A stretch of 64,000 bases of DNA from an uncultured Acidobacteriota bacterium (GCA_903916735.1 CAIWXX010000035.1:1-64000), one strand, 5' to 3'; shown: positions 9,430-44,386, counted from the stretch's first letter. Translations and numbers: made by a program. Notes: generated by a model not told the origin, from the sequence alone.

Positions 9430-10392
9430 GATTCACCACCTGTAGCGATCACATCCGCCGGTTTTTGATTTCCATCGTTGGGCATAGTGGCCATCAATAC
9501 TGTCCCTGCCAAAACGAAGGGAGTTTCATGAGATGCTGGTCGAATATATAAGGATACGACGAGTCAATCGTAACCTTTCCAGTGACAAGGAATCTTCGCC
9601 ACGTGAATTTCCCACTTCGATTGCCGTTTCGCTCACTCATATTTGGCAGCAACCGGCAGGCAACAAACGTGATCCACCCTAGTGATTGCCCCCGCTATCA
9701 GCCGAATCGGGCTCAAAAAGCCGGCATAAACAGCAATCAGCAACACAGATTGGTACATCCGGCACATATGGCGCGGCATGAATGGAGTATTCATATATAA
9801 ACCTCGACCCCACGAAGCGGATACATAAGTTGTGGATCATAATTGATGTGAAACAGAATTGTCAACAGAGAGTTGAGAAATAATAAAAGGTTCAGAAATA
9901 TTTATGATTGTAGATTTTTTCCATCAGAGGGCTTTTCGATTGACTGAGATATGTCAAATTGGATCGGGAATGGATTAGGCCGGGACGATCTAACCCTTTG
10001 CCTTCACTCCTAGCCCCTTGCTGAATTCAGGACCATTCTGCCGCGATTCACAACGCTTTGGTTCTCAGAACTTCCGAGACGCTTTGTTAGGACATCATCA
10101 TGCAGCATGACGATATTTGTAAAACGTCAGGCGGGCAAAAGCCGCCTTTCGCGTTCTATGCCTGATTCAGACCTGGATTTCAGAAAGCCGTGTGAGATCT
10201 TTAGTGTCTAAAAGTGCAAGATCCCACCCGAACCTCTTAGGAATGCAGGAAGTAAGGAAACCAGGAACGACCCCGACCATTGCCGGCACACCCGCCTTCC
10301 GTTCCTGCATTCCTCCCTTCCTGACTTCCTGGGAGGTCTGGAGTCGCTCTGTGGTGCGGCCACCGCCTTTGGTTCTGGCTCCGCCAGGGGGT
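9430..10392. other. 963 bp intergenic region without a convincing gene
   Basis: Neither strand shows a supported coding frame. The stretch 9790-9960 is distinctly AT-rich compared with its surroundings. The minus strand has TATATA-like sequence near 9546-9553 that could serve as a -10 for the giant gene, without a clear -35. The R2 inverted repeat copy A lies at 10233-10336, just beyond the stop of the secretin gene. Confidence 0.6.
10233..10336. repeat. R2 copy A: AGGAA-rich long inverted repeat
   Basis: The left arm begins CCTCTTAGGAATGCAGGAAG. The reverse complement of the right arm begins CCTCCCAGGAAGTCAGGAAG, so the two ~36 bp arms pair imperfectly around a ~30 bp centre. A second copy with the same edges lies at 63034-63141, and both are preceded by CCCGAA. 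Copy A sits about 57 bp beyond the secretin stop codon, where it could act as a transcript-end structure. No T-tract follows, so a simple intrinsic terminator is not supported. Confidence 0.65.
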
Positions 10393-13017
10393 TTAGGGTT
10401 CTTTTCCGTCGGCTTTCGTTACTGTCAACGTCGGAGCTTGAAAAGAAGCGGGCAATTCCTGGAGGCGCAGGTCAAGCACATGCATTTCCGACGAGCTGAC
10501 TGTAACCTCGCCGGCCGCAATGGCTTTCACTTGCACAACGGCAAGCTTTTCCTGACGCACATTGCTCGCCATGCCTCCCAGTATCACAGAGAGTTTCAAT
10601 TTGCCCGTCGCATTATCAATGACAGGCGTGACATTGCCCCCATGAGCACGTACGAAATCTCCTGTGTCAACACGTTCGATATGCAATTTGTCGGCCGGAA
10701 AACGCAGCTCGCCATCCAGCATCTGAAACTCCTTCACATTCTCTATGATCAGATCCAGAGTCTGGGACTGGCCTACAGCAAGGGTCTGTGAGCTACTGAC
10801 AAGTGAAAGGCGAGCTGTCGATTCCTGCTCAGAGACGGCCGATTTATCTTGTTCTTGAGATGGCAGAGGTGGGGCCGATTCATCCACCTGGGATGGATTT
10901 TCCTGTTCGCTGCGTTCAGATGGAGGAGGTGTCGCCTCTTCCGCCGGAATCTCCTGCGTGCCGCCAGTGACGGCAGGCTCTTCTCGCGAGGCCGGTTCGT
11001 TGGGAATTTGCGATGATGAGTCGGGTTCTTGAGAAGAAGGCCGTATTCCCTCATGCATCTCAGCCGGGGCTGTTTGTGTTCCGCCTGCAGCCGGCACGGC
11101 TCCAGGCTGCGTCTTTGCCGGAGTTTTTGGTGGGGACGGTTGAGGCTTGACAGAGGGCACAACAACCGGCGTTTCCTTTTTCTCCTTGTCAAAAGGCGAT
11201 GCCGGCAGGCTTTCCTTCAGCCCGATGTTTTCCTCAGTGCCCACGTAATAAGAGCGTAGATCATCTTCGTCGATATCCGGAAACTTGATGATGTGCGGAG
11301 TGATTGTCAGGATAATATCGGTCTGTTCAATTTCTTTGTCGTTACTACTAAAGATCTCCTTGACGATCGGCAGGTTCACAAGGCCCGGCAAGCCCTTCAC
11401 AGAGCTGCGTTCGTTATCTCGTAAAAGCCCCGCCAGAATTCCCGTCTCATTATCCTGCAGACGAATCACCGATTTGACATTTCGGGTTCCAATGGTGGGA
11501 GGCCGTGTGTCGGTGCCGGCCTCGGTGATAAAGGTCAACTCGAATTCCAATTTCATCGTGATCCAGCCATCGTGATGCACTCGCGGCGTGAGCTTGATCA
11601 TGATCCCGATGTCGGCATAGTTATAGGAGTTAATCGGGTTCTGATTGAGGGTACTCGTGGAAGAAGTGCCGTAATTGGGAACAAAAGAGGTCTGCAGGAT
11701 TGGCACCTTATCGCCCAAATGGACGACCTCTTCTTCCTGATCGACGACCCTGAGCTGTGGCTTCGCCTTGACCTTGGTCAGGCTGTCCTCCTGCATCAAT
11801 TTGTAAGCCACGGAGGGCAGGTTGAAGAAAAAATCCGATAGGTTAAGATGCTTGAGTTGTGTTCCGCGAACCGGCGATCCGGACGTCACCTTCGAAAGAT
11901 CAGTCACAGGCCATGGATTGAGAAACTCGCTAACATAATACTGGGACAACTCGACGCCATATTTCTTCATTCGCCGGCGATTGACTTCCAGAATCTCAAC
12001 ATCGATCAAGAGCTCTGCGCGGGCCTTGTCGAGCGTACGGATCAGCTTCTCGGCCACGGCTATTTTATTCGGAGTATCCCGCAGAGTGATGCTGTTGAGT
12101 GTTTCGTTGGTTCCGACTGTTTTAATTCCGACCAGTTCCCTGACTTCCTTCTCGACTTGCTTCAAATCAGCATTGGAGAGGAAAAAAGTGCGCATCACGA
12201 GCTCGTTGTATTCCGCTTTCTTCTTTGGATCGTCTGGGATGACGATGATTGTGCGTTCATCAATGACTTTGTAAAAATTTCTGGTCTGGATAAGGACCTT
12301 CTCGAGGGCCTCCTTGAAGCTGACTCGATCCAGGTCGACCGTCAGCTTCTGGCTCTGAAAATTCTTATCAAACAGGATCCGGACTCCTGAGAGACTCTGA
12401 AGAGCGCGGAGGATCACAGCGAGATCGGCTTCCCCCATTTTCAAATTAAAAGGTTCATTTTCCGGCTGAAGCTTCGGGGCTCGCTCGCTCTCGCTTTGAG
12501 CCACCTTTTCTTTGAGCACTTCCAGATCGGATGATTCTTCCTTCTTCTTTTCCTCGGCGAGGCGCTTCAGCAAACCATCCTTCTGCCGCCGTGCTTCGTT
12601 GTTACCGGGGTTATTTTCCAAAGCCTTGTTGAACTCGAACAAAGCGACTCGGGCGTCACCGGCCTCCAGCATCTCCTGGCCGCGATGAAGGTGGTAATTC
12701 GAAGCCGAGACCAAAGATCTGCCCAACGCGAATCGATACCGGACGTTTTCGGGTTCGCTCTGGAGTGCCCTCATGTAATACTGAACCGCCTGATCGATTT
12801 CATTCTTCTGATAGGCTTCTTCGCCTTTTCGAAACGCCGTTCGACTGGCACAGGTCGCTGTGAGAAGTAGTATTGCCAGGGAAATTCCGAATCGTCCCAG
12901 CTTGGATGGAGCGCAAAGCGGATCGTGACATCTTTCACGTTGCAGCTCTGTCTTGTTCCTTGTGCAGGGGTTGTGCTGCATGGAATGTTGAGATCTTGGA
13001 TAGGAATCGGTGCTCAT
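10393..13017 (-). CDS. Secretin (GspD/PilQ type) with TPR N-terminus and cohesin-like C-terminus
   Basis: Outer-membrane secretin, about 874 residues. In order it has a hydrophobic N-terminal segment ending in LTATC (a weak lipobox), a TPR-like region (about residues 50-150), a charged coiled coil, N0/STN and N1 domains (FNLKMGEADLAVILRALQ onward) and the secretin core. The core shows VPILQTSFVP and a C-terminal GLLRDNE...KGLPGL signature ending in DIILTITPHII. A long Pro/Glu/Ser-rich linker (about 600-730) leads to a ~135-residue cohesin-like beta domain (LIIENVKEFQMLDGELRFP). It is last in a three-gene operon after the PKD lipoprotein. The start is uncertain: an upstream TTG at 13029 and an ATG at 12981 are alternatives, and none has a strong ribosome site. 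No ATPase or pilin genes are nearby, so it works with components encoded elsewhere. Confidence 0.88.
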   Translation of the reverse strand: MSTDSYPRSQHSMQHNPCTRNKTELQRERCHDPLCAPSKLGRFGISLAILLLTATCASRTAFRKGEEAYQKNEIDQAVQYYMRALQSEPENVRYRFALGRSLVSASNYHLHRGQEMLEAGDARVALFEFNKALENNPGNNEARRQKDGLLKRLAEEKKKEESSDLEVLKEKVAQSESERAPKLQPENEPFNLKMGEADLAVILRALQSLSGVRILFDKNFQSQKLTVDLDRVSFKEALEKVLIQTRNFYKVIDERTIIVIPDDPKKKAEYNELVMRTFFLSNADLKQVEKEVRELVGIKTVGTNETLNSITLRDTPNKIAVAEKLIRTLDKARAELLIDVEILEVNRRRMKKYGVELSQYYVSEFLNPWPVTDLSKVTSGSPVRGTQLKHLNLSDFFFNLPSVAYKLMQEDSLTKVKAKPQLRVVDQEEEVVHLGDKVPILQTSFVPNYGTSSTSTLNQNPINSYNYADIGIMIKLTPRVHHDGWITMKLEFELTFITEAGTDTRPPTIGTRNVKSVIRLQDNETGILAGLLRDNERSSVKGLPGLVNLPIVKEIFSSNDKEIEQTDIILTITPHIIKFPDIDEDDLRSYYVGTEENIGLKESLPASPFDKEKKETPVVVPSVKPQPSPPKTPAKTQPGAVPAAGGTQTAPAEMHEGIRPSSQEPDSSSQIPNEPASREEPAVTGGTQEIPAEEATPPPSERSEQENPSQVDESAPPLPSQEQDKSAVSEQESTARLSLVSSSQTLAVGQSQTLDLIIENVKEFQMLDGELRFPADKLHIERVDTGDFVRAHGGNVTPVIDNATGKLKLSVILGGMASNVRQEKLAVVQVKAIAAGEVTVSSSEMHVLDLRLQELPASFQAPTLTVTKADGKEP

Positions 13018-30015: not shown

Positions 30016-31980
30016 ATGCAACGAACTGACCGTGTCTGTCTCAAACATCTCTTTTCCCTCGCCGTCACGGCACTTTTCATTTTCGCTTTCTCGGTGTTCG
30101 CTCAGGAAGCGACCACAACAAACGAATCCAAGGAACCTGAGAAAAAGGAAGAGAAAGCCAAGACGCCGCCGCCTGTCACCGAATCCATCACCGTCGAAGC
30201 CACAGCACCTAAAGAGCTGCCCTATTCGTCGACATCCATAATTAACGAAGTCACTCTCAAAGAGACTCACCCTAAAGATGTATCGGATGTCCTCTCGATG
30301 ACGACCGGGACCTTTGTTTCCGTCGGGGGTAAAAACGAATGGAGCATCAAAATCCGCGGCCTCGATACGTCGCGGAGCACGATGGTCTATGATGGAATTC
30401 CTGTCTACGAGCCCTATTACAACTCTTACGATCTGAAATCGTTCCTCGCCTACGATATCGGATCATTGAAGATAGTAAAAGGCGCTTCATCGGTCCTTTA
30501 CGGGCCTAATACACTCGGTGGAATCGTCGAACTGACGACTCTCCGCCCTAACCCGCCTTCTCTGCATCTCTCCACATTCGCCGGCAGCAACAGCACGTAT
30601 GGCCAATCGGGCAGCGGGTCTATCAAGCTGGGCGATCTCACGTTCGTCGGCTCGGCCACTCATGAAAAATCAAACGGGTTCAACTATCTCAAAAATGGTG
30701 AGAAGACCGAGCGCCAGAACAGCGACTACGAAAGAAGCGGCATCGACACCAAGGTCTATCTTTATCCGTGGAGCAACTCCGAGATTCTGGGAGAAGTGGA
30801 ATACACCAAGATGGACTATGGCATTCCATGGACAACAGATAGCTCTTCGTCAAAAAGATACTGGCGATTCAACGACTGGTATCGCGTCGCGACCAATGTC
30901 GGAGGCACTTTCCCAATTCTCGAGACGGGCAATCTTAAGGTGAGAACCTATTATGTCAAGTACTATAACGTTTTGGATAGCTACACGAGCCCGTCCATCA
31001 ACAAGTTGCAGTATGAATCGACATACGACAATCACTCTTACGGAGCATTCGCTCTGGGCACGGTCCCTGTCGGCGATCGACAGGAAGTTCGGGCCAGCTT
31101 GACCATCCATTCCGATCACGCAAAGACCCAGGCCAGCACGACCGCGCCATGGCTTGACTTTAATCAGAATATCGCTTCGGGCGGAGTCGAAGATAATTTC
31201 AAGCTGACCGAACAGTGGAGTGTCATGGGCGGATTCAGCGTCGATCACCTGTCCAAAGAGGAAGGCAAAGGCAACAATAAGACAACCGTCAACCCGATTG
31301 CCGGCGTCAAGTTCAACCCACGCGACGACTTGGATCTGCACTTCACTGTCTGCCAGAAATCCAGGTTCCCGTCGATGAGGAGCCTCTACAGCTCGACAGC
31401 CGGGAACCCCGATCTGAGTGACGAGAGGGGCACCAATGTCGAATTCGGGTTCACATGGAGCGGATGGTTGAAGCTGAGCAGCGCGATTTTCAACAACAAT
31501 ATCCATGACATGATCGACAGGAAGTTCCTGCCCGACGGCACGTTCGTATATTTCAACTACAAGAAGGCACGGCTGCGTGGGTTTGAGCTCGAGCTGGAAA
31601 AATCGATGAACTGGTTTACGTTCTCCACATCCTACACATACCTGGATGCACGCAACATCACCGAATCGCGGCCTCTGGATATCACGCCCAAGAATCAGTT
31701 CAATGCCGCCTTCACAGTCACACCCCACAACTACTTCTCTGCCACGATCTGGGGCCTGGCCGTATCCAAGTCGGAAGTCAAGAATTCAAACATCATCACC
31801 CCTGTCGCCGGCTACGCCATAATCAATGCCACGATCCAGAAGGAATTTTTCCAGATGGTCAATGGCTGGGTGAAAATCGAAAACATGCTCAACAAAGACT
31901 ATGTCACAGAGCCCGGATATCCCATGAAAGCCAGGACATTCTCAATCGGTCTGGATCTCCGACTGGGCGGAAACCGGTAA
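30016..31980 (+). CDS. TonB-dependent outer-membrane receptor
   Basis: A 654-residue receptor. The signal peptide ends FSVFAQ/EA. A Pro/Lys/Glu-rich spacer precedes the plug domain (about residues 65-180: ESITVEA, the TonB-box-like segment, then VSDVLSMTTGTFVSVGG, IRGLDTSRSTMVYDGIPV and VLYGPNTLGGIV). The barrel ends in an aromatic-rich strand with GLDLRLGG. A strong AAGGAGG precedes the ATG. Genes for a CcsA-like protein, ResB and a CxxCH protein follow on the same strand, with 23 bp to the first. A substrate cannot be read from the sequence. The linkage to cytochrome assembly suggests a metal or haem-related ligand, which is inference. Confidence 0.9.
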   Translation: MQRTDRVCLKHLFSLAVTALFIFAFSVFAQEATTTNESKEPEKKEEKAKTPPPVTESITVEATAPKELPYSSTSIINEVTLKETHPKDVSDVLSMTTGTFVSVGGKNEWSIKIRGLDTSRSTMVYDGIPVYEPYYNSYDLKSFLAYDIGSLKIVKGASSVLYGPNTLGGIVELTTLRPNPPSLHLSTFAGSNSTYGQSGSGSIKLGDLTFVGSATHEKSNGFNYLKNGEKTERQNSDYERSGIDTKVYLYPWSNSEILGEVEYTKMDYGIPWTTDSSSSKRYWRFNDWYRVATNVGGTFPILETGNLKVRTYYVKYYNVLDSYTSPSINKLQYESTYDNHSYGAFALGTVPVGDRQEVRASLTIHSDHAKTQASTTAPWLDFNQNIASGGVEDNFKLTEQWSVMGGFSVDHLSKEEGKGNNKTTVNPIAGVKFNPRDDLDLHFTVCQKSRFPSMRSLYSSTAGNPDLSDERGTNVEFGFTWSGWLKLSSAIFNNNIHDMIDRKFLPDGTFVYFNYKKARLRGFELELEKSMNWFTFSTSYTYLDARNITESRPLDITPKNQFNAAFTVTPHNYFSATIWGLAVSKSEVKNSNIITPVAGYAIINATIQKEFFQMVNGWVKIENMLNKDYVTEPGYPMKARTFSIGLDLRLGGNR

Positions 31981-32003
31981 CGAGAGATGATGACCCGGCG
32001 ACA

Positions 32004-32753
32004 ATGAAACTCCATCAGGTTTTCTTCATTTATTATGCCGCGGGGGCCTGCTACATCGCCTCCGCGGCGACATCCCGCTCGAAGGCAGCTTTGGTTCGTT
32101 TCATTCTTCCTGCCGGCATACTCCTCAATATCCTCTTTCTCGCCGGCCGCGCCTTCTCCGCGGGGATTTTCCTGCCGCTCGCCATCGTCGAAGAACCGTA
32201 CATCCTCCCGCTCTGCCTCGCGGTTCTTCACGAACTGACTCGCCGAAAGCTCTCAGAGGACAATCATGCCCCTGCTCTGATTCCGCTGGTTGCTCTCTTC
32301 TGGTGTGCGTCGCTTTTCTGCCAGCGATGGATCCTTCCGCCATCGGCCAAATCAGACACTCTTTTTTGTTTTCTCTTTTTCTTGACCGAAACGGCAGCCC
32401 ATGCGTGCTTCTTTGCAGCGGCATGGTTCGCTGCCCGGCACATCTGGAGAGACGATGCCGGAAAGCTCTATCACTCGATCGCCGTGTGGGGGTTCGTGCT
32501 TTTCAGTGCATCGCAGATCTCCGGGGCCATCTGGTGTTACCTTGGTTGGTCGGCGCCCTTCATGTGGAGTAACCGCCATTTGCAAACCGCGGCCGTATGG
32601 GTTCTCTATGCAAACTACATCCACCTCCGTTTCATCGAAGGGTGGAGTCATCGGAAGAAAGCCTGGTTGCTCATGGCAGGAGCCACGATTGTGCTCACAT
32701 TCGCAATATGGGGGCTTCTGGTCGAGCTCACGATGCATCGGGTTGGTGGATGA
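32004..32753 (+). CDS. Divergent CcsA/CcmC-like cytochrome c assembly protein
   Basis: A 249-residue membrane protein with about seven or eight helices. Late in the sequence comes GAIWCYLGWSAPFMWSNRHL, then WVLYANYIHLR. This lines up with the CcsA/CcmC haem-handling WWD segment (WGxxWxWDPKET) and the following helix, but the Asp-Pro-Lys-Glu-Thr part is replaced by Ser-Asn-Arg-His. Histidines near AHACFF and LYHSIAVWG could be haem ligands. It ends two bases before the resB ATG. With ResB it would form a system II haem export and ligation complex. Family membership is supported by the motif and neighbour, not by strong overall identity. Confidence 0.6.
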   Translation: MKLHQVFFIYYAAGACYIASAATSRSKAALVRFILPAGILLNILFLAGRAFSAGIFLPLAIVEEPYILPLCLAVLHELTRRKLSEDNHAPALIPLVALFWCASLFCQRWILPPSAKSDTLFCFLFFLTETAAHACFFAAAWFAARHIWRDDAGKLYHSIAVWGFVLFSASQISGAIWCYLGWSAPFMWSNRHLQTAAVWVLYANYIHLRFIEGWSHRKKAWLLMAGATIVLTFAIWGLLVELTMHRVGG

Positions 32754-32754
32754 G

Positions 32755-33534
32755 ATGATGAAGAAATTTTGGAAAATTCTGGCCGGTGTGGAGTCGACCT
32801 TCTGGCTACTGATGCTGATCATGTCCAACCTGATCGTGGGATCCTTCTACATGAAGTACAGCCCGAAAGCTCTCTTCACACTCAACCATCTCCCGTTTCC
32901 GGAATGGATGAGAACGTTTGGCGCTTCGAATCTCGGGGATTCCTGGTGGCTGTGGACGCTGGGTCTCCTGATGGCTCTTCTGGCCGTCAACACAGCCGCA
33001 TGCGTGATCGACCGGTTGCTCACTCTGCTGCCTCAATATGGAAAGACGAGCCTGCCGGCTTTCAGCCTCAAGCTGACTCCGACTGTTGTTCACATCTTCT
33101 TCTTCATTGCCGTCGGCGGGCATATGCTCTCGACATTGACCGCGACCTATAGTTCGATGCCCATCGAGCAGGGGGCGATCATGGACCTGGATCAAACACA
33201 TCGATGCCGGGTTGATACAATCGAACGCGATTTCTACACATCACCGGCAGCTATCAATGGCTTCCTTAAGCAGGCACGGGTCACTCTCACTTTGGAATGC
33301 GCCGGGAACCAAGAATCGCGGTCTGCTCAATTTCTGAAGCCGCTCTTCTGGGGAGGATACACACTCCATCTGGACTCGGCCGGAAAAGACAGGAATAGCG
33401 GGAATCTGTTGTTGGTCGCTCGGCGAGATATCGGCGTCCGGTTGATTATTCCCTGTTTCATTATCAATGTCCTCCTGCTCCTCTTTTACTATACGATGAG
33501 CAATGGTGGATTTCGCTCGAACTCCGAATCTTGA
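32755..33534 (+). CDS. resB: ResB-like cytochrome c biogenesis protein
   Basis: A 259-residue membrane protein. Helices lie at about residues 10-32, 62-85 and 105-125, with a periplasmic domain (about 130-225) and a C-terminal helix (LIIPCFIINVLLLLFYYTM). The layout and the opening VESTFWLLMLIMSNLIVGSFY match ResB/Ccs1, but it is shorter than the usual 400-500 residues. ResB works with CcsA in system II to attach haem to CxxCH apocytochromes outside the inner membrane. The ATG at 32755 lies just past the CcsA-like stop. The frame stays open upstream only inside that gene. Confidence 0.75.
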   Translation: MMKKFWKILAGVESTFWLLMLIMSNLIVGSFYMKYSPKALFTLNHLPFPEWMRTFGASNLGDSWWLWTLGLLMALLAVNTAACVIDRLLTLLPQYGKTSLPAFSLKLTPTVVHIFFFIAVGGHMLSTLTATYSSMPIEQGAIMDLDQTHRCRVDTIERDFYTSPAAINGFLKQARVTLTLECAGNQESRSAQFLKPLFWGGYTLHLDSAGKDRNSGNLLLVARRDIGVRLIIPCFIINVLLLLFYYTMSNGGFRSNSES

Positions 33535-33592
33535 GGCTGCCGCATTTTGCAGCTCTTCGCTTCAACACGTCCGATTCAAAGGAGAAATCATA

Positions 33593-34681
33593 ATGAATAA
33601 AAGATTCCTGGGAGTGATTGCCCTACTGGCAGTCGCCTCTTGGGGTACCGACGCGATCGCTGCCATTCGCGTGACAGGGTGCGTGAAAGACCCGATGACG
33701 CTCGAACAGACGGATATCGCGCTCTTCCATCAGCACACTCGAATCGTGAAGCTTTTCTTCCCTGACGGAACCTATCGCGGAACAACCGATATAGCCGGCG
33801 CCGGCCTGAGGGAAATTCTCGAAAAGGCCGACATCACCAAGAAATCCGATGACGGCTTCGATCGCCCCTTGGACACTTATATTCTGGTCAAAGGGCGTGG
33901 GGGCGAACGGGCGCTCTTTTCCTATGGAGAGATTTTTCTTTCCGATGATCAGGATCAGTTTCTTCTTGCGGATCGCATGCGGCCTGTCATCCCTCATCAT
34001 CATGCCAACCCCACCGAACTGGGATGGGATAGAGAAGCGTGGCTGGATTCATCAGCTCGTGAGAAACTGGAGATGAAAAAATGCATGGGTTGTCATGATG
34101 GTCATCAACAGGTGAAATTGTCGCTGCCGGCCGGAATGTGCCTGGTGCCGACGCATGATAAAAATACACATCGCTTCATTGCGGACGTCGCGGAAATCTC
34201 CGTCTGCCAGGCGGGTGTCACTGTTTCAAAAAGCGACTCAAAGGATAAATCGCTCTGGGTGGATCGTCCTGTGCTGGTGCTGAAAGACGGCCACGAAGTT
34301 CCGATCGGACCTGATTCCCTCAACGGCCTGCCGACAATTGAATGGCAAGATGCATCCGTTGGCATGGGGAGGGGCTTCCAGGGAATACGCCAATGGAAGG
34401 GTGCGAGCCTCCTGGGGCTGCTGAATCGAAACGTGGGAGCGAATCCGGATTATGGAACATTCGCGATCCTCGTGACGGCTTCAGATGGATACCGATGCCT
34501 ATACTCTGGCGGTGAAATGGCGTATTCGCCTCTTGGCGAGACGCTCATATTGGCCGACACCGTCGATGGCAAGCCGATGGACAAGGATAGTGGGCGTTTC
34601 CGGACTGTGACAAAGGAAGATTTCTTCATCGATCGCAGTGTCCGATTGGTCAAAGAGATTCGAATTCTGCCGATTCAGTAA
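33593..34681 (+). CDS. Secreted protein with CxxCH haem motif and two molybdopterin-domain-like repeats
   Basis: A 362-residue protein with signal peptide (LGVIALLAVASWGTDAIA). Residues about 25-125 (VTGCVKDPMTLEQTDIALF, then GAGLREILEKADI) and about 255-362 (GFQGIRQWKGASLLGLLNR, LILADTVDGKP) each resemble the sulfite-oxidase-type molybdopterin-binding fold. Both are short and lack an obvious cofactor Cys environment. Between them is Cys164-Met-Gly-Cys-His168, a c-type haem attachment site, preceded by a His-rich PHHHANP. AAAGGAG precedes ATG 33593. The frame reaches back to 33503 inside resB. It is the likely client of the CcsA/ResB pair. Enzyme activity is unproven. Confidence 0.65.
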   Translation: MNKRFLGVIALLAVASWGTDAIAAIRVTGCVKDPMTLEQTDIALFHQHTRIVKLFFPDGTYRGTTDIAGAGLREILEKADITKKSDDGFDRPLDTYILVKGRGGERALFSYGEIFLSDDQDQFLLADRMRPVIPHHHANPTELGWDREAWLDSSAREKLEMKKCMGCHDGHQQVKLSLPAGMCLVPTHDKNTHRFIADVAEISVCQAGVTVSKSDSKDKSLWVDRPVLVLKDGHEVPIGPDSLNGLPTIEWQDASVGMGRGFQGIRQWKGASLLGLLNRNVGANPDYGTFAILVTASDGYRCLYSGGEMAYSPLGETLILADTVDGKPMDKDSGRFRTVTKEDFFIDRSVRLVKEIRILPIQ

Positions 34682-34864: not shown

Positions 34865-35713
34865 TCATATTTGTGTTTTCATCTGGTAGAAAACGGATCG
34901 TAGGTAGCGTTTGGGTTCGAATTCAGGGCAAAGCCCGGTGATTGATTCAGTCGAGCCGATGATCAGGACGCCATCTTTGGCGAGAAATTTGCCGATATTC
35001 CTGAACAGGCGGATCTTATCGGATTCAGTAAAATAGATCGCAACATTGCGACAAAAAACAATGTCAAAAGGAGCCGGAAAGGCAAATGGTTCCAGAAGGT
35101 TCATGATCCGGAATGTGGCCAATGCGCGGATTTCGTCCCGGATCTTCCAACGGTCTCTATCCTGCGTGAAATTCCTAGCGACCTTATCGGCAGGCAATCC
35201 TCGATCCAGTTCCAGTTTGCTGAAATGGCCATAACTGGCCTGGGCAACCGCCTTGTCGGAGATATCCGTGCCCAGGATGCGTACGTCGTAGCCGTTGAAG
35301 TCTCCGAGCAGTTCCCTGAGTATGATACCGGTGCTGTAGGCTTCCTGTCCGGTCGAGCACGCGGCGCTCCAGATTCGTATCGGCACCGGTCGCAGGCCTG
35401 ACTTGTTGCGCCGATCGACAAGCTCGGGAATCAGCTTATGCTGGAGCAGCTCGAAGGGGGACGTGTCCCGGAAAAAGGAGGTCTCGTTGGTTGTGATGGC
35501 ATCGATGACCTTCCGCCTCACCGTATTTGTGAGATCCGATTTTGTCTTGTAATAGAGTTCCGAGAAACTGCCGGCGCCGGTCTCCTGAAGCAATTGGCCC
35601 AGGCGGGTTTCGAGCAGATAGCCTTTGGTTTCGTCCAGATAGATGCCACATATCTCATGTATGTAGCGCAACCAGATGCTCAGCTCGTCGCGTGTGATGG
35701 CAACAGCTCTCAC
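34865..35713 (-). CDS. cheR: Chemotaxis protein methyltransferase CheR
   Basis: A 282-residue SAM-dependent methyltransferase that methylates glutamates of chemoreceptors. It has the N-terminal helical CheR domain (about residues 10-75) and the Rossmann domain with IRIWSAACSTGQEAYS, ILGTDIS and FDIVFCRNVAIYF. It ends the eight-gene signalling operon. The start overlaps the cheB stop by 4 bp (ATGA type), so translation is coupled. The MCP of this operon lacks a CheR-binding NWETF-like tail, so CheR must dock directly on the helical bundle. Confidence 0.93.
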   Translation of the reverse strand: MRAVAITRDELSIWLRYIHEICGIYLDETKGYLLETRLGQLLQETGAGSFSELYYKTKSDLTNTVRRKVIDAITTNETSFFRDTSPFELLQHKLIPELVDRRNKSGLRPVPIRIWSAACSTGQEAYSTGIILRELLGDFNGYDVRILGTDISDKAVAQASYGHFSKLELDRGLPADKVARNFTQDRDRWKIRDEIRALATFRIMNLLEPFAFPAPFDIVFCRNVAIYFTESDKIRLFRNIGKFLAKDGVLIIGSTESITGLCPEFEPKRYLRSVFYQMKTQI

Positions 35714-36840
35714 GCTCTCCTTCCCCGGACAGTTGCAACGATCCGTGAAGCGATGGCATCCAGCGCCAGGACGCTATCCACGACCCCAGCGTCCACGGCT
35801 GATTTCGGCATGCCATACACGACACACGTTGGTTCATCCTGCGCGATCACATAGCAACCGTGCCGCTTCAGCAGGCGCAGCCCGAGTGTTCCATCATTGC
35901 CCATGCCCGTCAGGATCACCGCCATGGCGCGACCGGGGAATTTGTTGGCCGCGGATCGAAAGAGATAGTCCACCGCCGGCTTACAGTTATTTTCCGGTGG
36001 ATCGTCCGTGATCTGGATCTGAAGGCCGATATCAGAGCCTGGCTGCAGGCGCATTTGCTTCCCACCAGGGGCAATGTAGGCAGTGTTCGGCTCGACCTTC
36101 TCGCCCTGAGACGCCTCACGAACACGAATCCTGCATTTGGCCGCCAGGCTCTCCGCCAGTGATTGTGTAAAGACGGGGGGCATGTGCTGCACAATCAGCA
36201 GAGGGACGCCGATATCTCCCGGAATCTCAGGCAGGAGGCGCGCCAGGGCATTGGGGCCTCCGGTCGAGACTCCGATGAGAACCATTTCCGGCTTGTTGGT
36301 TGAGGTCAACCGGGCCATGCGCCCGGCAATATCATCGAGATTCTGCGGCGGCGCTTTGTGCGCTTCAATGACCTTCTCCACCGGCATGGTCGCTTTTGAA
36401 GTCGGCGGCTTTTGACGGAGGATATTTCGAATCTCCAGCCGATGGGATAGCGCCGCCACACGCATCGCGAGTTCCCGCCGGATGGTTTCGCGGCTCTCCT
36501 CCGCGTTACTCGTATCGGGCTTGGTGATGAAGTCGAAAGCGCCCTTTTCCAGGGCTTGCATCGTCAACTGCCCGCCTCTCCGGGTCAATGCACTGACGAC
36601 GATGATGGCCGGCGTTTCGTCGAATTGATGCAACGCGTCAAGAACCGCAAGGCCGTCCATCTCCGGCATTTCCATGTCGAGAGTCATCAGGTCAGGATGG
36701 AATTCCTTGACGCGCTGCAGTGCAAGCCTCCCGTTCGACACACTTCCAACGACCTCCACATTGGGGATCGTCGCAAGAACATCGGTCATCACGCGGCGGA
36801 ACAAGGCCGAATCGTCAACGACAAGAACTCTGAGGCTCAC
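35710..36840 (-). CDS. cheB: Protein-glutamate methylesterase CheB
   Basis: A 376-residue response regulator with methylesterase output. The receiver domain has D9/D10 and phospho-acceptor Asp55 (LMTLDMEMP). The catalytic domain (about residues 185-370) shows the serine loop IGVSTGGPNALARLLPEIP, LIVQHMPPVFT with the catalytic His, and ILTGMGNDGTLGL with the catalytic Asp. It removes methyl groups added by CheR, or deamidates receptor glutamines. It overlaps both neighbours by 4 bp. The CheA of this operon is the expected phosphodonor. Confidence 0.94.
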   Translation of the reverse strand: MSLRVLVVDDSALFRRVMTDVLATIPNVEVVGSVSNGRLALQRVKEFHPDLMTLDMEMPEMDGLAVLDALHQFDETPAIIVVSALTRRGGQLTMQALEKGAFDFITKPDTSNAEESRETIRRELAMRVAALSHRLEIRNILRQKPPTSKATMPVEKVIEAHKAPPQNLDDIAGRMARLTSTNKPEMVLIGVSTGGPNALARLLPEIPGDIGVPLLIVQHMPPVFTQSLAESLAAKCRIRVREASQGEKVEPNTAYIAPGGKQMRLQPGSDIGLQIQITDDPPENNCKPAVDYLFRSAANKFPGRAMAVILTGMGNDGTLGLRLLKRHGCYVIAQDEPTCVVYGMPKSAVDAGVVDSVLALDAIASRIVATVRGRRA

Positions 36841-37328
36841 AAGCTCTCCCGCTCCTTCGTTGATTTTTGATTGGCCAATTCATCGATGCTCATGAGTGCC
36901 TCGGGATCAAGCACGCCGACCAACCGGTGACCGCCCCGGCAGACGCCGCGCAGATTCCGAGATTGAACGCCACCCAGATTCGGCGGTGGTGGAGCGATGT
37001 CTTCAAGGCGCGTGGTGATCGTTTCGGCGACGCTGTCCACTAGAAAGCCGATCGGCTCGCTCTTCCACTCCATGATGAGAATCCGGCTGTCGGGGGTGAT
37101 CTTCGCGTTACCCAACTCCAACCGCGTAGCCAGATCGATCACGGTGACGATTCTGCCGCGCAGATTGCGAATCCCGACGACGTGATGTGGAGCGTGGTGG
37201 ACGGGGGTGATATCGCCGATCTTGACGACTTCCTGAACCAGTTGCGCATCGATTCCGAAAGCGGCTTCTCCCAGCAGGAAGGATGCCAGAAGAAGGCCGT
37301 CAGCAGTAATTGCCTGATCGACATTCAT
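36837..37328 (-). CDS. cheW: Chemotaxis adaptor CheW
   Basis: A 163-residue scaffold that couples the receptor to CheA. The SH3-like CheW fold shows LLASFLLGEAAFGIDAQLV, then HHVVGIRNLRGRIVTVIDLA, both highly conserved, and ILIMEWKSEPIGFLVD. It overlaps cheB by 4 bp and lies 16 bp after the MCP gene. The CheA in this operon also contains its own CheW-like domains, so this protein completes a standard MCP-CheW-CheA array. Confidence 0.93.
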   Translation of the reverse strand: MNVDQAITADGLLLASFLLGEAAFGIDAQLVQEVVKIGDITPVHHAPHHVVGIRNLRGRIVTVIDLATRLELGNAKITPDSRILIMEWKSEPIGFLVDSVAETITTRLEDIAPPPPNLGGVQSRNLRGVCRGGHRLVGVLDPEALMSIDELANQKSTKERESL

Positions 37329-37344
37329 GTGATCCCTACTCTTT

Positions 37345-39033
37345 CTACCCCGCCTTTATTTTAAACTGCGCAACCAGAGCACTGAGGTGTTCGGCCAGTC
37401 TCGACAATTCAGCTGCGCTGGTCTGCACCTGCTCGCCACCCTGGCGTATTTCGCCAACCGTCGAGTTGACAGCGGCGATGTCCTGAGCCATGGATTTCGA
37501 CACCGATGCTGTCTGGGCGACGCGTTGGTTCGCATCATTCACGCCGGCTGAGGCTTGTGCGATATTGGCGGCAACATCTTTCGTCACCGTGGCCTGTTCT
37601 TCGATTGCGGCGGCGATGTTGGCGACAATACCGCCCACGTCCTTGATCACGGCGGCGATCTTTTCAATGTCGGCAATGGCGCCGCCGGCCGAATTCTGAA
37701 CGCTAGAAATCTTGTTCTTAATGTCTTCGGTGGCTGTCGCCGTTTGCCGCGCCAGTTCCTTGATCTCGTTGGCGACGACTGCAAACCCCTTGCCTGCCGC
37801 GCCGGCGCGTGCCGCTTCAATGGTCGCATTCAGTGCCAGGAGATTCGTCTGCGAGGAAATATTGGTGATGGTCTCTGTCACCTTGCCGATCTCTTGAGCG
37901 GACTTCCCGAGGTGCTGCATCAATACCGAAATGCTCTGAGCCTGGGCCATCGCCTGCTCGCTGATGGATCTGGCCTTTTCGGAGTTCGAAGCGATATCAC
38001 CGACGGTGGCACTCATTTCTTCAGTCGCGCTGGCAACGGAAGCGAGGTTCGTCGATGCCTGTTCCATGCTCGCCGCGACGGAGACAGTGTTGGTGCTGGA
38101 TTCTTCGGCAGCCGCTGCGACTGTGGATACCCTGGCTGAGGCATCCTTCACTCCCGCCGCCGTCTGTCCCGAGATTGTGGAGAGCTCGGTTGAAGAGGAT
38201 GCCAACGTCTGAACTCCGCTTGTGACATCATGCACCAACTTACGCAGGTTCTCCTGCATGGATTGCATGGCTCTCGCCAAGTCGCCCATTTCATCACTCC
38301 GCGAGGTGGCATGTTTTGAAACATCGATCGAAAAGTTGCCCTTGGCCATTTCCGCAAAATGAAGAACAACACGTGATATCGGAAAGGCCACGCTGTGAGT
38401 GATTGTAGAGCCAAAGTAGGCTGCAATCGCCACGATGATACATACAGCGGCGACCAGGATCCAGCGGATTCGTACATAGATCGCCTGAGCCGCATCGCTC
38501 GCCTCTGTCATCCGCTTCGTCCGCCAATCGATGAACTCGTTCATGGCGATCCTAATCTTGGCCATCTTCTGTGCAGCCTCGACGGCGCAGAGTGAAACGG
38601 CTTCCGCGTCTTTCCCCTTATAGCTGGCGTCAATAATTGCGTTATTGACATCTCTGGTGGCTGCAATGGTCCCCTCTAAATTGGCCAACAACTGCTTCCC
38701 TGTCTCCGTTGTTGCCGAGGCTTTTAACACCTCCATATTCTTCTTGTAAGCCTCTCGAAGCTTTTCAATATCGGCTTTGGCATCCTGCTTGCCGGCCATG
38801 TCTTTGCTGGTAACGATCTTCCAGATGTTCAGTCTGATGTTATCGACCTGCGTGTTGACATCCTTGGCCAACGACATTTTGTTGGCCTCGTCTTGTATTG
38901 TTCCCATGGCTTGATTGATGGACGAGAGCCCCCACCATGCAATGGCGGCCAATATCAAGGTGAATGCCGCCACGATTCCGAATCCAAGTCCCAGCCGCTT
39001 GCCGAGTTTCATGTTCGTAAGATTCATAATCAT
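37345..39033 (-). CDS. Methyl-accepting chemotaxis protein
   Basis: A 562-residue inner-membrane receptor. A first helix at about residues 12-34 leads to a periplasmic four-helix-bundle (4HB_MCP) sensor (about 35-190), a second helix (about 192-215), HAMP (about 215-270) and the signalling coiled coil. The conserved hairpin tip reads [17 protein letters not shown] then [15 protein letters not shown]. There is no C-terminal CheR/CheB pentapeptide. AAGGAGAC precedes the ATG. It follows cheA after 191 bp. The ligand is not predictable from a 4HB domain. Confidence 0.92.
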
Positions 39034-39224
39034 TGTCTCCTTTTCCTGCAGATTAGGGTTTCCCTAATATTCGTTCTCTTTATATGTGTTACTTTCCGTG
39101 CCATTCCCAGACTCATCTCTCCCCCTGTGATTCTCGACATCGACCCGGGTGCAGATGCGACAGCACCCAACCGAGTCTCTCGGGCATCGGATACAATAGC
39201 AACTGTGTCATGCACGATGCTGCC

Positions 39225-42200
39225 TCAAGCGACCGCCGTCAGTGCATGGATGCTGGCCAGCAGTCTTTCCCGATCAAGTTTGATCTGATATTCATTGACG
39301 CCGGCGGCTTTGCCGTTAGCCATGTCTTCCTCGCTCGCGAGCGATGTCACGGCGATGACGGGCAATCGAGCTGTGCGAGCATCGGCGCGGATGCGCTGCG
39401 TCAACCCCAATCCTGTCAGTCGCGGCATTTCGATGTCTGTGACGACGGCGCGGACCTTATCCAGGTTTTGGAGAAGGAGCTCCCAGGCGGCTTCACCATC
39501 GGGCGCGTCGAGCACAATGAATCCGTCTTCCTCCATAAAACGCTTGACCTGAGTGCGGAAGAAATCGGAATCTTCCGCGAGCAGTATTGTCGGGGATTCC
39601 TGGCCGACAGTCATCTTGCGTAGCGCGGTCTTTGCCTTTCCCCATTCCGGGTAAACGGCGTCCACGATTTCGAAGAGATCGGCAATCAACGTTGTCCGAT
39701 CGCGGATGATTGTGGATCCTGCGATGCCTTTCTGTCGATGTGTCACTTGATCGATGACCACCTTGGCTTCAATCACATCCACGGGCATGGCGCCCAATAA
39801 GCCGACCTCACGGCCGTGGACGCTCGAGACGATCACCGCAAGATCTTTTATTTCGGCGATAGATTTGACCTTGGCGGTATCGGCAAGGGTCACAAGAGGC
39901 AGCGATGCGCCTCGGTATTGCATCGTCCGTTTCCCGCCGACCTCTTCGACCTGCTCAGGAGTGATCCGTTCGATGCGCTGAACCGTATCGAGTGGGATAG
40001 CGCATGGTTCATCGGCCGCGTTATGGAACAGGAACAGGGCATGAACATCCTGGAGTTTATCGCGCTCCGCCTCTCCTGCCAGTTCCATGGCCCGGCTCGA
40101 TCCGGTGATGGACAATAAGCCGGCCTTGGTCGCCAAGCCGGCAATATCCAAAATGAGCGCCACCGTGCCGTCGCCGAGGATCGTGGCGCCGGCGTATTCT
40201 CGCAGGCTTTTGAGTTGACTTCCGAGGGGCTTGACCACAATCTCTTCGGTATCATGGAACGTGCCGACTACAAGTCCATAGCTCATGGTGCCGGTTGAGA
40301 CGACGGCAATCTCCATGGCACTCGAAGCGCTGAAGCGTCGGCCGTCTGTGTGCCGGCGTGCAAGTTGCTCCGGCTGACTTTCCGACTGGCCGGCGCCATC
40401 AGTTTCGTTCGCCACAGGATGGCGCGGCGAACGGCGGTCGGCGAGTTGAGTGCGGCGGTCGATCTCCATGACACCGGTCATGGGATCAACATAAGTGTTT
40501 GCAACACCGAGAACCCGGTCGAATCTCACGAGAGGCAATAGCCGGTCACGCAACAGCAGCACTTCCGATCCGCCAACCACCTCTATTCGATTCTTCGTGT
40601 CTTCAGCGCGCAGGCGCAGCAGCTCTTCGATATTGATCTGTGGAATTGCAAATCGCTCGCTCTCGACTGAAACGATAAGCGAAGGAATGATGGCCAGCGT
40701 GAGCGGTAATTTGATCCGGAAAAGCGATCCTTTGCCGATGGCCGACGTGATTTCAACTTTGCCTCCAAGGCGGTCGAGGTTGGTTTTGACGACATCCATG
40801 CCGACGCCTCGGCCCGAGATATCCGAGACATTCTGAGATGTCGACAGGCCGGGCAGAAAGATGAGTGCCTGCTTGTCACGATCACTCATGCCCTGGAGTT
40901 TTTCCGCCGTGATCATCCCTTTTGCAAGAGCGGATTCCGCGATGCGGTTCGGGTCGATTCCTTTGCCGTCGTCTTCGATTTCGACGACAACCTGGCCGGC
41001 TTCATGTTTCGCTTCGATGCGAACCGTTCCCGCGCTCTTCTTTCCGCAGCGGGCACGGACCTCAGGAGTCTCGATGCCATGGTCGACTGCGTTGCGCACC
41101 ATGTGAGTCAGGGGATCGGACAGGCCTTCAATCAGGCTCTTGTCGAGGGCGACGTCTTTTCCGCGAATGTCGAGCTGGATGTCCTTGCCCAGGGATTGAG
41201 ACAGATCCCGCACGACCCGGGGGAATTTATTGAAGACGTTGCCGAGGGACTGGAGTCGGGTCTGCATGATGGCATCCTGGAGTTCAGCCGTCACCTGATT
41301 GATACGCTGGTCGGCCACCGACAGAGCCTGCAGGTTATTCTGAGCAACGGCCGCGCGCAACTGGTTGCGGCTGAGGACCAGTTCGCCTGCCAGGTTCATG
41401 AGTGCTTCGAGCAATCCGACATTGACACGCAGAGTATCCTCGACCGCGGTCGTCGCGGTGCCGGTGGCGGGCTGAGGCGCCGCCTTCTCTTCAGGACGCG
41501 CTTCCGGTTGGCGAGCAGCAGGCGAAGGGAGCGGCTCGGGGGGAGAAACAGGCACCTCGCTCGGCATGACGACCTTTACTATTTTTTTCTCTTTCATCTG
41601 TTTTGACGCCACTTTCTTTTTTGGCGACTGAGCAGCCGGCATGGTTGGGACTGCCGCCGGCTGGACAACACTGGGCGGCATGACCGGCGACGATGGATCG
41701 AAAAGGAGATGGATTCGTTCACGAGGCACAGTCTTGAAAAGCGTGTGGATGATGTTGGGGTCGATGATCGTGGCGAAAACCAGCTTCAGAGGAAGTCGGT
41801 TGCCGATAGGCCCGTCCAGCGTGCCCGCAGATTCATAATCCAGAGCGCAGTCCATGATCTCGCCGGTTGCCGTGAGATCATGGAACATGAGAAGTATGTT
41901 TTTGCCCTGACGTTCGATATCATGGATGAGATCCATATCCACGGAATAGATATAGCGACGCGCACGCCTGGCCCTTTCGAAATCCACCTGTGGAACGGCG
42001 ACGGCGGGGCCGCCTTCCGAAGGCTGCATTGACACCTGCGATGTCAGTGATGCTTTCTGATCGGGTGGCAGGTAGGAAGATGCCAGGCCGGTCAGGCTCA
42101 CCACAAGATCAGCAATGTCGGCGGTTTCAGAATCGGTGGCATTGTTGAGCATATCCCGGAGCTTGTCGAAGGCGGCCAACAGGACATTGGTGACCTCGGC

Positions 42201-42449
42201 GTTGGGTGTCATCTTCCTGGAGCGGAGCATGTCGAGCACGGTTTCGGCCTTGTGTGCCAGTTCCTTGACCTTGACGAGGCCGAAAAACCCGCTGCCTCCT
42301 TTGATCGAGTGGGCTGCGCGGAAGACCTTGTTGACGAGTTCCTCGTCGATCTGGGCTCCGCCGGTCTCGATCGTCAGCAGATCAGCTTCGATGTCAGCCA
42401 AATGCTCCCGTGATTCGTTGATGAAATCCTTGAGGAGATCGTCATTCAT
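39225..42449 (-). CDS. cheA: Hybrid histidine kinase CheA with two CheW-type domains and a receiver
   Basis: A 1074-residue kinase. It has Hpt (residues 1-110, phosphosite His47 in AAHSIKGGSGFFG), an unusual region (about 160-260, ARRYIYSVDMDLIHDIE), a Pro/Ala-rich linker and a dimerisation helix pair (about 330-395). HATPase_c (about 395-570) shows HMVRNAVDHGIE, DDGKGID and DISGRGVGMDVVK. A CheW-type regulatory region with an insertion (about 575-770), a second CheW-like domain (about 790-930) and a C-terminal receiver (954-1074, Asp1005 in VVTDIEMP) follow. The built-in receiver may be a phosphate sink or an output. GGGAGAAC precedes the ATG. It follows rsbV-like by 17 bp. Confidence 0.93.
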   Translation of the reverse strand: MNDDLLKDFINESREHLADIEADLLTIETGGAQIDEELVNKVFRAAHSIKGGSGFFGLVKVKELAHKAETVLDMLRSRKMTPNAEVTNVLLAAFDKLRDMLNNATDSETADIADLVVSLTGLASSYLPPDQKASLTSQVSMQPSEGGPAVAVPQVDFERARRARRYIYSVDMDLIHDIERQGKNILLMFHDLTATGEIMDCALDYESAGTLDGPIGNRLPLKLVFATIIDPNIIHTLFKTVPRERIHLLFDPSSPVMPPSVVQPAAVPTMPAAQSPKKKVASKQMKEKKIVKVVMPSEVPVSPPEPLPSPAARQPEARPEEKAAPQPATGTATTAVEDTLRVNVGLLEALMNLAGELVLSRNQLRAAVAQNNLQALSVADQRINQVTAELQDAIMQTRLQSLGNVFNKFPRVVRDLSQSLGKDIQLDIRGKDVALDKSLIEGLSDPLTHMVRNAVDHGIETPEVRARCGKKSAGTVRIEAKHEAGQVVVEIEDDGKGIDPNRIAESALAKGMITAEKLQGMSDRDKQALIFLPGLSTSQNVSDISGRGVGMDVVKTNLDRLGGKVEITSAIGKGSLFRIKLPLTLAIIPSLIVSVESERFAIPQINIEELLRLRAEDTKNRIEVVGGSEVLLLRDRLLPLVRFDRVLGVANTYVDPMTGVMEIDRRTQLADRRSPRHPVANETDGAGQSESQPEQLARRHTDGRRFSASSAMEIAVVSTGTMSYGLVVGTFHDTEEIVVKPLGSQLKSLREYAGATILGDGTVALILDIAGLATKAGLLSITGSSRAMELAGEAERDKLQDVHALFLFHNAADEPCAIPLDTVQRIERITPEQVEEVGGKRTMQYRGASLPLVTLADTAKVKSIAEIKDLAVIVSSVHGREVGLLGAMPVDVIEAKVVIDQVTHRQKGIAGSTIIRDRTTLIADLFEIVDAVYPEWGKAKTALRKMTVGQESPTILLAEDSDFFRTQVKRFMEEDGFIVLDAPDGEAAWELLLQNLDKVRAVVTDIEMPRLTGLGLTQRIRADARTARLPVIAVTSLASEEDMANGKAAGVNEYQIKLDRERLLASIHALTAVA

Positions 42450-42466
42450 GGCTGTTCTCCCGTCGG

Positions 42467-42778
42467 CTACCGCCCGGTGGCTTGGAGCCGATTGATGAGC
42501 CTCATGCTTTGAAGCAGCTGCAGGATGTCCGCTGAGACATTGATGACACGCATTCGGCAGTGCGCACGGCTGAGCGTATTGCAGGCGGCAATCAACAAGC
42601 CGATGCCGCTGGAATCCAGCATGACCGCTTTTCCGAGATCGAAGATGACCTCTTCAGCATTTTTTTCGAGTTCCTGTTTCAACGCCGCCTGCACATCCGG
42701 CACGATCGCGGCCGTCAAATCCCCCTGCAGCGTCACTAGGATCTGCTTTCCCGTACGTTCAATGGTGTGACTTGCCAT
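42467..42778 (-). CDS. STAS-domain anti-anti-sigma factor (RsbV/SpoIIAA type)
   Basis: A 103-residue single STAS domain. VIFDLGKAVMLDSSGIGLL contains the DSSG phosphorylation site (Ser in the D-S-S-G turn). In the family, the unphosphorylated form binds the kinase anti-sigma factor and releases its target. It overlaps the RsbW-like gene by 20 bp, which suggests strict stoichiometry. It stands directly ahead of cheA, so the switch output might be the chemotaxis-like system rather than a sigma factor; no sigma factor is encoded in this window. Confidence 0.9.
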   Translation of the reverse strand: MASHTIERTGKQILVTLQGDLTAAIVPDVQAALKQELEKNAEEVIFDLGKAVMLDSSGIGLLIAACNTLSRAHCRMRVINVSADILQLLQSMRLINRLQATGR

Positions 42779-43274
42779 GGTGGCTCAGCACTCCTTTCCT
42801 ATCCTTGAGAATCCAAAATGAGACCCGGTTACCTTTGCGGTTGAAGGTGATCCGGTCGGCGTAGGCAAAACCAATGCGTATGCCTCGCCCACAGGTGGCC
42901 ATGTCATCCGGACTGACTTCTCTCCTGGCCTGCCGCCAGTTGAAACCGGGACCTTGATCGGTGATTTGCACACAAACCCATTTTCTGCCGATCATCATGC
43001 ACACGCTCACCTTCTTATCGGCAATTTGACAATGACCATGAAGAATAGCGTTATTAAGGAACTCTCTTGTCAGCAAATCCGTCACAAAACCGAGCTTCTT
43101 CAGCGCGATTTTTTCGAGATGGAGTTTTATTTCCTGACAGACGGGATCCACTTCGGAGAGATGCGAGGAGATTAATCGATGAAATGCCGGCGAATGAACA
43201 TTCGTGGGTATGGGATGGTGAGTAGAAGATCGGTTTCGACGTGATTGATCGAGTCCGGATTTGGTGGGCTTCAT
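42759..43274 (-). CDS. Anti-sigma-type serine kinase (RsbW/SpoIIAB-like)
   Basis: A 171-residue HATPase_c_2 protein. REFLNNAILHGHC corresponds to the N box, TDQGPGFNW to the G1 box, and TCGRGIRIGFAYADRI to the G2 box. Such kinases phosphorylate the STAS antagonist and sequester a partner. The first 50 residues are variable and Ser/His-rich. The ATG overlaps the upstream phosphatase stop by 4 bp (ATGA), and its end overlaps the STAS gene by 20 bp. These three genes make a complete partner-switch module. Confidence 0.88.
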   Translation of the reverse strand: MKPTKSGLDQSRRNRSSTHHPIPTNVHSPAFHRLISSHLSEVDPVCQEIKLHLEKIALKKLGFVTDLLTREFLNNAILHGHCQIADKKVSVCMMIGRKWVCVQITDQGPGFNWRQARREVSPDDMATCGRGIRIGFAYADRITFNRKGNRVSFWILKDRKGVLSHHGKSHH

Positions 43275-44386
43275 ATATCCACGCCCATCAAGACGATGTC
43301 ATCGGCTATTTCGGCGGCTCCTGTCATGACAGCCATGATGGATTGCACGGCGGCAGCAAGAGATTCCTGCCGATACGCCCGGCAAGCTTCAGCCAGCCTG
43401 CTAATGCCCTCTTCGCGAGAGCCACCCGGTTCGATCAAACCATCGGAATACAGAAAGAGACGATCACCCGGCGGCACGATAATATCGCGGGTGTCAAAGT
43501 CCGCGTCTGAAAACACCCCGATGACATCGCCTTCCTGCCGCTGGATGGTGCATTGATCTTCCGAGCCGTGGAGGATGCAGGCAGGAGGATGACCGGCGTT
43601 GACGATCGAGAGGCGGCTTCTTTTCCGGTTGATGCGCGCATAGATCAAGGTGAAAAAGACACCATTCGGCAGAATCCGAACAAGAGCGTTGTTAACGGAG
43701 CGCACCACATCCCGAGGAGAATTGATCGCGAAAGCGTATTCCGACAGCAGAGCTTTCAGGGATGCGGTCCAAAATGATGCGGCTAAGTCATGGCCGCTGG
43801 CATCGGCGACGATATAGTCGGTGATATAAAGGCTCACCGGAATCACATCGTAAAAGTCGCCGCCGGCCTGGAGCACCTGGCGTAGCGATAGTTGGAAACG
43901 CGCTTCAGGCAAATCCTCAGGCCGCGGCATGAGTGCTTCTTGAGCCTTCGAGAGACGCTGAATTCTCTCCGCCTGCAATTCTGCCAGGCGGTCGAATGCC
44001 TGCTTGAGCCGCAGATGAGTGGAGACACGAGCGATGACTTCCTCGCCCGCCAGAGGCTTTGTGATGTAGTCGACCCCGCCGGCGTTGAACCCTTGCAGCT
44101 TCGCGGCAACCTCATCCATCGCGGAGATAAACAGAACCGGTATTCGCGATGTCGTGCCCTCTGCTTGCAGCCGCCGGCACACATCGAACCCGTTGCCGTC
44201 GGGAAGATTGACATCGAGCAAAATGAGATCTGGAAATTCCCGACTGATCGCGTTGAAGACACCAGCGACATCGACAACTGAAATGGTCTGGAATCCCGCT
44301 CCTTGCAGGATGCCCTGAAGCATCCTATTCGTCGCCATGTCGTCATCGACAATCAAAATCAGGGGAGTTTTTCGACCGAAATTCAT
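43271..44386 (-). CDS. Response regulator with PP2C phosphatase (RsbU/SpoIIE type)
   Basis: A 371-residue protein: receiver domain (about residues 7-122, acidic triad D14-D16, phospho-acceptor Asp58 in LILLDVNLP, Lys of YITKPL), a coiled-coil linker (about 122-160) and a PP2C/SpoIIE phosphatase domain. The latter has LQAGGDFYDVIPV, VADASGHDLAAS and LFLYSDGLIEPGG, the metal-binding aspartates of the family. It would dephosphorylate the STAS protein when its receiver is phosphorylated, possibly by the operon's CheA. It is the first gene of the operon. Confidence 0.92.
   Translation of the reverse strand: MNFGRKTPLILIVDDDMATNRMLQGILQGAGFQTISVVDVAGVFNAISREFPDLILLDVNLPDGNGFDVCRRLQAEGTTSRIPVLFISAMDEVAAKLQGFNAGGVDYITKPLAGEEVIARVSTHLRLKQAFDRLAELQAERIQRLSKAQEALMPRPEDLPEARFQLSLRQVLQAGGDFYDVIPVSLYITDYIVADASGHDLAASFWTASLKALLSEYAFAINSPRDVVRSVNNALVRILPNGVFFTLIYARINRKRSRLSIVNAGHPPACILHGSEDQCTIQRQEGDVIGVFSDADFDTRDIIVPPGDRLFLYSDGLIEPGGSREEGISRLAEACRAYRQESLAAAVQSIMAVMTGAAEIADDIVLMGVDI

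Follow-up and report, generated by a model that had tools for sequence, protein, structure and literature searches.

A conserved TonB receptor operon with CcsA/ResB-like membrane proteins and a tandem SUOX-fold protein, possibly for molybdenum or tungsten acquisition, in an uncultured Acidobacteriota bacterium

The four-gene run and its products

The 64,000-nucleotide stretch analysed here (hereafter the window) comes from an uncultured Acidobacteriota bacterium (GCA_903916735.1, CAIWXX010000035.1:1-64000) and contains an operon-like run of four consecutive plus-strand genes, encoding a TonB-dependent outer-membrane receptor, a small CcsA-like protein (mini-CcsA), a small ResB-like protein (mini-ResB) and a secreted protein with a CxxCH motif (Table 1). 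The original prediction had described these four genes as consecutive with short gaps, and indeed the intergenic gaps are 23 bp, 1 bp and 58 bp. A Shine-Dalgarno-like AAAGGAGAAATC just upstream and a signal peptide in the product place the likely start of the fourth gene at 33593; the start of the open reading frame, at 33503, would overlap resB.

The receptor belongs to the TonB-dependent plug and barrel families (PF07715, 67.4 bits; PF00593, 119.5 bits). Both membrane proteins score below the family cut-offs, with 27.0 bits against 29.9 (PF01578) and 41.8 against 187.6 (TIGR03144) for mini-CcsA and 18.1 against 24.6 (PF05140) for mini-ResB, and profile searches of the two against the PDB found no informative relative by sequence. 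These scores are backed by homologues, since the profiles recover an operon of these four genes in phyla other than Acidobacteriota. The AlphaFold2 model of mini-CcsA (predicted local distance difference test, pLDDT, 88) has CcsBA (7s9z) as its best PDB fold match, a weak one (probability 1.00, E 0.06, template modelling score, TM-score, 0.50).

Canonical CcsA and ResB from the same phylum (L035) were used for the alignments. The window pair has in common with System II (CcsBA/ResBC) the homologous membrane domains, the pairing of the genes and the two transmembrane haem-ligand histidines (TM-His1 in ResB and TM-His2 in CcsA), which align to those of the canonical pair. It differs in its sub-threshold scores in all three families, in the loss of the WWD motif, in apparently having no conserved P-His2 and in a much reduced periplasmic domain of ResB. 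Where canonical CcsA has WxWD, mini-CcsA has FxWS, and WxWD is absent from all 20 homologues of mini-CcsA. A histidine at the P-His2 column is found only in the window copy and is not conserved among the 20 homologues; the window protein has another near P-His1, for which the candidate H133 is present in 8 of 20, the exact columns being uncertain in both cases. Mini-ResB is about 190 residues shorter than canonical ResB, and the loss concerns mostly the periplasmic part.

The fourth protein has a signal peptide and one transmembrane-like segment (residues 5-23). Homology between its two repeats is shown by hhalign (98.9%, E 3e-17), and its AlphaFold2 model (pLDDT 79, below 50 in the linker) matched sulfite dehydrogenase, sulfite oxidase, YedY and PruR in Foldseek (E 8e-8, probability 1.00), among them SorA, SoxC, chicken sulfite oxidase and tungsten-loaded YedY, while PruR structures gave target TM-scores of 0.63-0.76. 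The SUOX-fold assignment comes from these two methods; phmmer against the PDB gave no match, and a profile search only weak SUOX matches. The PF00174 score of the window protein is 18.5 bits (cut-off 24), and homologues of it exceed this cut-off. The CxxCH motif holds the same linker position in distant homologues, and no cysteine outside it is conserved in 25 homologues, so that no Mo-ligating cysteine is present. As modelled, the protein combines two molybdopterin-type (SUOX) folds with a single predicted c-type haem site, and haem would be attached at the linker CxxCH. The two molybdopterin-fold-like repeats with one CxxCH between them that the original prediction described are supported by this model, and a fold of the CcsA family is weakly supported by that of mini-CcsA. 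The original prediction had also called the arrangement unfamiliar, which holds for a CxxCH between two such repeats but not for the fold itself, already known from SUOX proteins and PruR.

PruR is a periplasmic pterin binder that also lacks the Mo-ligating cysteine (PMC13259868), and it shares secretion and the SUOX fold with the tandem protein. However, PruR is a single domain of about 170 residues coupled to dcpA, whereas the tandem protein has two repeats and a linker CxxCH and is encoded in an operon with a TonB receptor. With sulfite oxidase, SorA and YedY (PF00174) the overall fold is common, but the tandem protein is duplicated, has no Mo-Cys and carries its haem site in the linker, not in a partner subunit or separate domain.

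Table 1. Genes and sequence features of the operon, in window coordinates
Feature	Position	Strand	Description and evidence
TonB-dependent outer-membrane receptor	30016-31980	+	654 aa; plug and barrel domains behind a signal peptide; PF07715 and PF00593 above cut-off
Mini-CcsA, CcsA family, without WWD motif	32004-32753	+	249 aa; polytopic membrane protein; TIGR03144 and PF01578 sub-threshold
Mini-CcsA segment at the WWD position	32544-32591	+	GWSAPFMWSNRHLQTA in place of AWGRYWGWDPKEVWSL; alignments
CcsA His207, YxHxR histidine taken as TM-His2	32622-32624	+	invariant in 20/20 homologues
Mini-ResB	32755-33534	+	259 aa; four predicted transmembrane segments, short periplasmic loop; PF05140 sub-threshold; aligned to canonical 450-aa ResB
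ResB His113, taken as TM-His1	33091-33093	+	invariant in 20/20
Secreted tandem SUOX-fold protein with predicted c-haem site	33593-34681	+	362 aa; signal peptide, AlphaFold2, Foldseek
SUOX-like repeat 1 of the tandem protein	33662-33997	+	residues 24-135; hhalign against repeat 2
CxxCH motif (CMGCH) in the inter-domain linker	34082-34096	+	residues 164-168; same linker position in 13/16 operons
SUOX-like repeat 2 of the tandem protein	34256-34672	+	residues 222-360; PF00174 alignment, hhalign

Directly downstream of the operon, a minus-strand chemotaxis cluster (34865-44386) encodes CheR, CheB, CheW, a methyl-accepting chemotaxis protein and CheA with a receiver domain. At the left end of the window (1-9405), a minus-strand open reading frame of more than 3,100 codons, immunoglobulin-like or invasin-like in appearance, runs off the edge.

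Conservation of the operon and its neighbours in other genomes

The order TonB receptor-CcsA-ResB-CxxCH protein is identical, with genes 1 bp apart, in a genome from another family of the same phylum (G044). The window receptor is 26% identical to the receptor of that operon and 42% identical to that of another (G016). Scanning 84,980 species genomes with a CcsA profile, the only route by which Desulfobacterota were sampled, yielded 22 loci from Acidobacteriota, Desulfobacterota, Spirochaetota, Nitrospirota and other groups. The combination of CcsA, ResB and the tandem protein is found in 16 loci (the window and 15 others) from at least four phyla, and the CxxCH copy is present in 13 of these 16, several of which are close relatives, so that the independent number is smaller. 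The operon is thus real, recurrent and conserved across phyla, in agreement with the conserved neighbourhood that the original prediction had called for. It is apparently also previously undescribed, as neither an account of it nor a TonB receptor for molybdate or tungstate was found in the mainly open-access literature searched, subscription journals being mostly uncovered. In the CcsA tree, sequences from Desulfobacterales and Spirochaetes form a cross-phylum pair (support 96/96), which fits horizontal transfer.

In 297 genomes of the same phylum, sampled without anchoring on CcsA, the tandem protein was matched (E <=1e-31) in 23 besides the window genome, the match in G195 being a fragment. 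In several of these 23 it lies directly beside a TonB receptor without CcsA/ResB, an arrangement found at L015, L099, L101, L102 and L105-L107. Therefore, the receptor and the tandem protein are the core of the system, and CcsA/ResB and the haem site are additions to it. CxxCH tandem proteins without an adjacent CcsA/ResB pair occur at L103, L108, L109 and L110, and pairs without any CxxCH protein at L036, L053 and loci of the type with tungsten aldehyde:ferredoxin oxidoreductase (AOR); in the sample drawn without anchoring on CcsA, a strict association of CxxCH with CcsA/ResB was rejected. Similar CcsA/ResB pairs lie near AOR in L028 (4099-9880), L030 and L042. A ferredoxin with a twin-arginine translocation signal is also found at AOR-type loci, and a polyferredoxin in L029, L030 and L050, which fits a role of the pair in electron transfer.

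Genes for the handling of molybdenum and tungsten (Mo/W) recur near the operon in relatives, several of them confirmed at the family level. The G044 operon (L041) has as neighbours a ModE-type regulator, TupA, MobA, MogA and MoaA, and the TonB receptor and tandem protein of L108 are accompanied by a TupB-type permease, MoeA, MoaA and MoaC. A Mop molbindin lies beside the operon in L037, L053 and L054, TupA is found in L038, a TupA-like substrate-binding protein and an FmdE-family protein in L054, ModA beside L046 and a ModE-type regulator in L036. The sites of action of TupABC and ModABC, and of ModE and Mop, are the inner membrane or the cytoplasm, whereas the operon described here contributes a receptor in the outer membrane and a protein in the periplasm.

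Other features were noted at these loci. An APC-family amino-acid permease is encoded 3' of the operon in L043 (10173-11507), L038 (13208-14533), L040 (11657-12982) and others, and ExbB/ExbD in some loci. Separate TP_methylases with signal-like N-termini, putatively secreted members of this S-adenosylmethionine (SAM)-dependent family, occur in L032 (10743-11603) and L096 (8613-9494). Also in L032, an FmdE-family protein (PF02663) with a CxxCH motif (9986-10708) has as neighbours CcsA/ResB, a TupA-like binding protein and a TP_methylase. A contig labelled as a Thermoplasmata archaeon (L039) carries an operon with a TonB outer-membrane receptor and is probably a mis-binned bacterial contig.

Possible functions of the operon

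In the original prediction, CcsA and ResB were a dedicated System II haem-ligation pair, which would attach haem to the CxxCH protein. Such a private synthetase, which we find rather unlikely, would account for the adjacency of the genes, for both TM-His being kept, for the window histidines at the P-His2 column and near P-His1, and for the CxxCH copy in most operons that hold the pair and the tandem protein. However, a synthetase is defined by the WWD motif, two P-His and two TM-His, all required for cytochrome c maturation, and changing WWXD to AAXA abolishes haem attachment in CcsBA (PMC6299221). Because the WWD is lost in all 20 homologues, P-His2 appears unconserved, ResB is reduced, CxxCH proteins and CcsA/ResB pairs also occur separately, and a System I Ccm cluster is encoded in the same genome (CcmF and CcmC identified by family search; CcmA, CcmB and CcmE read by eye in the same run), we did not accept this explanation. 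As both transmembrane haem ligands are kept and the attachment motif is lost, we prefer the reading that the pair would conduct haem or electrons across the membrane.

We tentatively propose that the four genes form a conserved operon for TonB-dependent acquisition of molybdenum or tungsten, as an oxyanion, a thio-complex or an organic complex, in mostly anaerobic lineages; of the functions considered, such acquisition coupled to redox handling in the periplasm has the best support, with confidence somewhat below even. As the operon often lies beside Mo/W uptake genes in relatives, it may be an outer-membrane route for these metals or a related compound, and the uptake role already suggested for the receptor is compatible with the data. 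The receptor would bring a Mo/W species into the periplasm, where the tandem protein, having lost the Mo-ligating cysteine, could bind this compound, or a pterin or Mo/W species, in its two clefts. Mini-CcsA and mini-ResB, keeping only the membrane haem cage formed by TM-His1 and TM-His2, would serve as the conduit feeding the linker c-haem of the tandem protein, and the captured compound would be reduced or released and then enter by ordinary ATP-binding cassette (ABC) import through TupABC or ModABC.

Several observations weigh against Mo/W acquisition. The genomic link to these metals is seen in relatives and not in this window, since no Mo/W gene was found in its 64 kb, the TupABC genes of this genome are on another contig than the operon and a ModE homologue was not found in the genome. 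A scan for ModE-like palindromes in front of every receptor singled out L041 alone and not the window receptor, so ModE regulation of the window operon is not proposed. The Mo/W link is supported by an excess of TOBE loci no more than 10 kb from an operon (4 observed, 0.2 expected, Poisson p 6e-5, 15 genomes), with the sole TOBE domain of the L037 genome being an operon neighbour, but this Mo/W tally is post hoc and comes partly from related lineages. The metal substrate, any cofactor of the tandem protein, haem attachment and electron flow are predicted. Moreover, many Desulfobacterota encode the tandem protein as a fusion with a TP_methylase (PF00590) domain, which hints at a tetrapyrrole; fusions with a likely signal peptide ahead of this domain are found at L032:6095-7816, L037:5440-7200, L038:11461-13203, L043, L045-L049 and L057. 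A second CcsA/ResB subtype is accompanied by TonB receptors and a FecBCD-type ABC importer (L034:5058-14560, L055, L056), and L055 and L056 also carry radical SAM genes. FecBCD-type importers usually serve siderophore, haem or cobalamin. The fusions and this subtype leave room for uptake of haem, an iron chelate or a pterin.

If a haem-like or siderophore compound were imported by the receptor and handled or reduced by CcsA/ResB, the TP_methylase fusions and the FecBCD link would be explained, as would the best NCBIfam subfamily matches of the receptor, which are haem and haemoglobin types, all far below cut-off. TonB metallophore and haem uptake operons with inner-membrane reductases likewise combine a receptor with a candidate membrane haem-type redox part; here, in contrast, this part is CcsA/ResB-like, relatives have Mo/W neighbours and no siderophore genes were seen in the window. 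Uptake of haem, a tetrapyrrole or an iron chelate is rather unlikely and leaves unexplained the recurrent ModE, Mop, TupA, ModA and molybdenum cofactor genes and the doubled SUOX/pterin fold. The fold matches to PruR and the cofactor genes near the operon in relatives would suit a tandem protein that acts as a double PruR, capturing or sensing a pterin or molybdopterin imported by the receptor. This is unlikely, as no DcpA partner gene was seen, the tandem protein gene is flanked in the window by CcsA/ResB and chemotaxis genes and a pterin-transporting TonB receptor was not encountered in the literature searched. Slightly more doubtful is a combination in which an extracellular pterin, a compound of the molybdopterin type or a Mo/W-pterin enters through the TonB receptor, is captured by the PruR-like tandem protein and is reduced through a new kind of transmembrane CcsA/ResB haem conduit without synthetase site. 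If the tandem protein were a catalytic Mo enzyme of the sulfite oxidase type carrying its own c-haem, this would agree with the fold matches to SorA, SoxC and chicken sulfite oxidase, and SorAB and SoxCD include c-haem partners. This reading was rejected as very improbable, since the cysteine that would ligate molybdenum is missing.

Few descriptions exist of how molybdenum and tungsten are taken up across the outer membrane. The way in which pterins cross the membrane has been stated as unknown (PMC13259868). A conserved TonB operon tied by genomic position to ModE, Mop, Tup/Mod and molybdenum cofactor genes would give a concrete candidate for an outer-membrane route for these metals. Moreover, CcsA/ResB proteins that keep the haem histidines without the attachment motif would show that the membrane parts of System II have been reused beyond cytochrome c synthesis.

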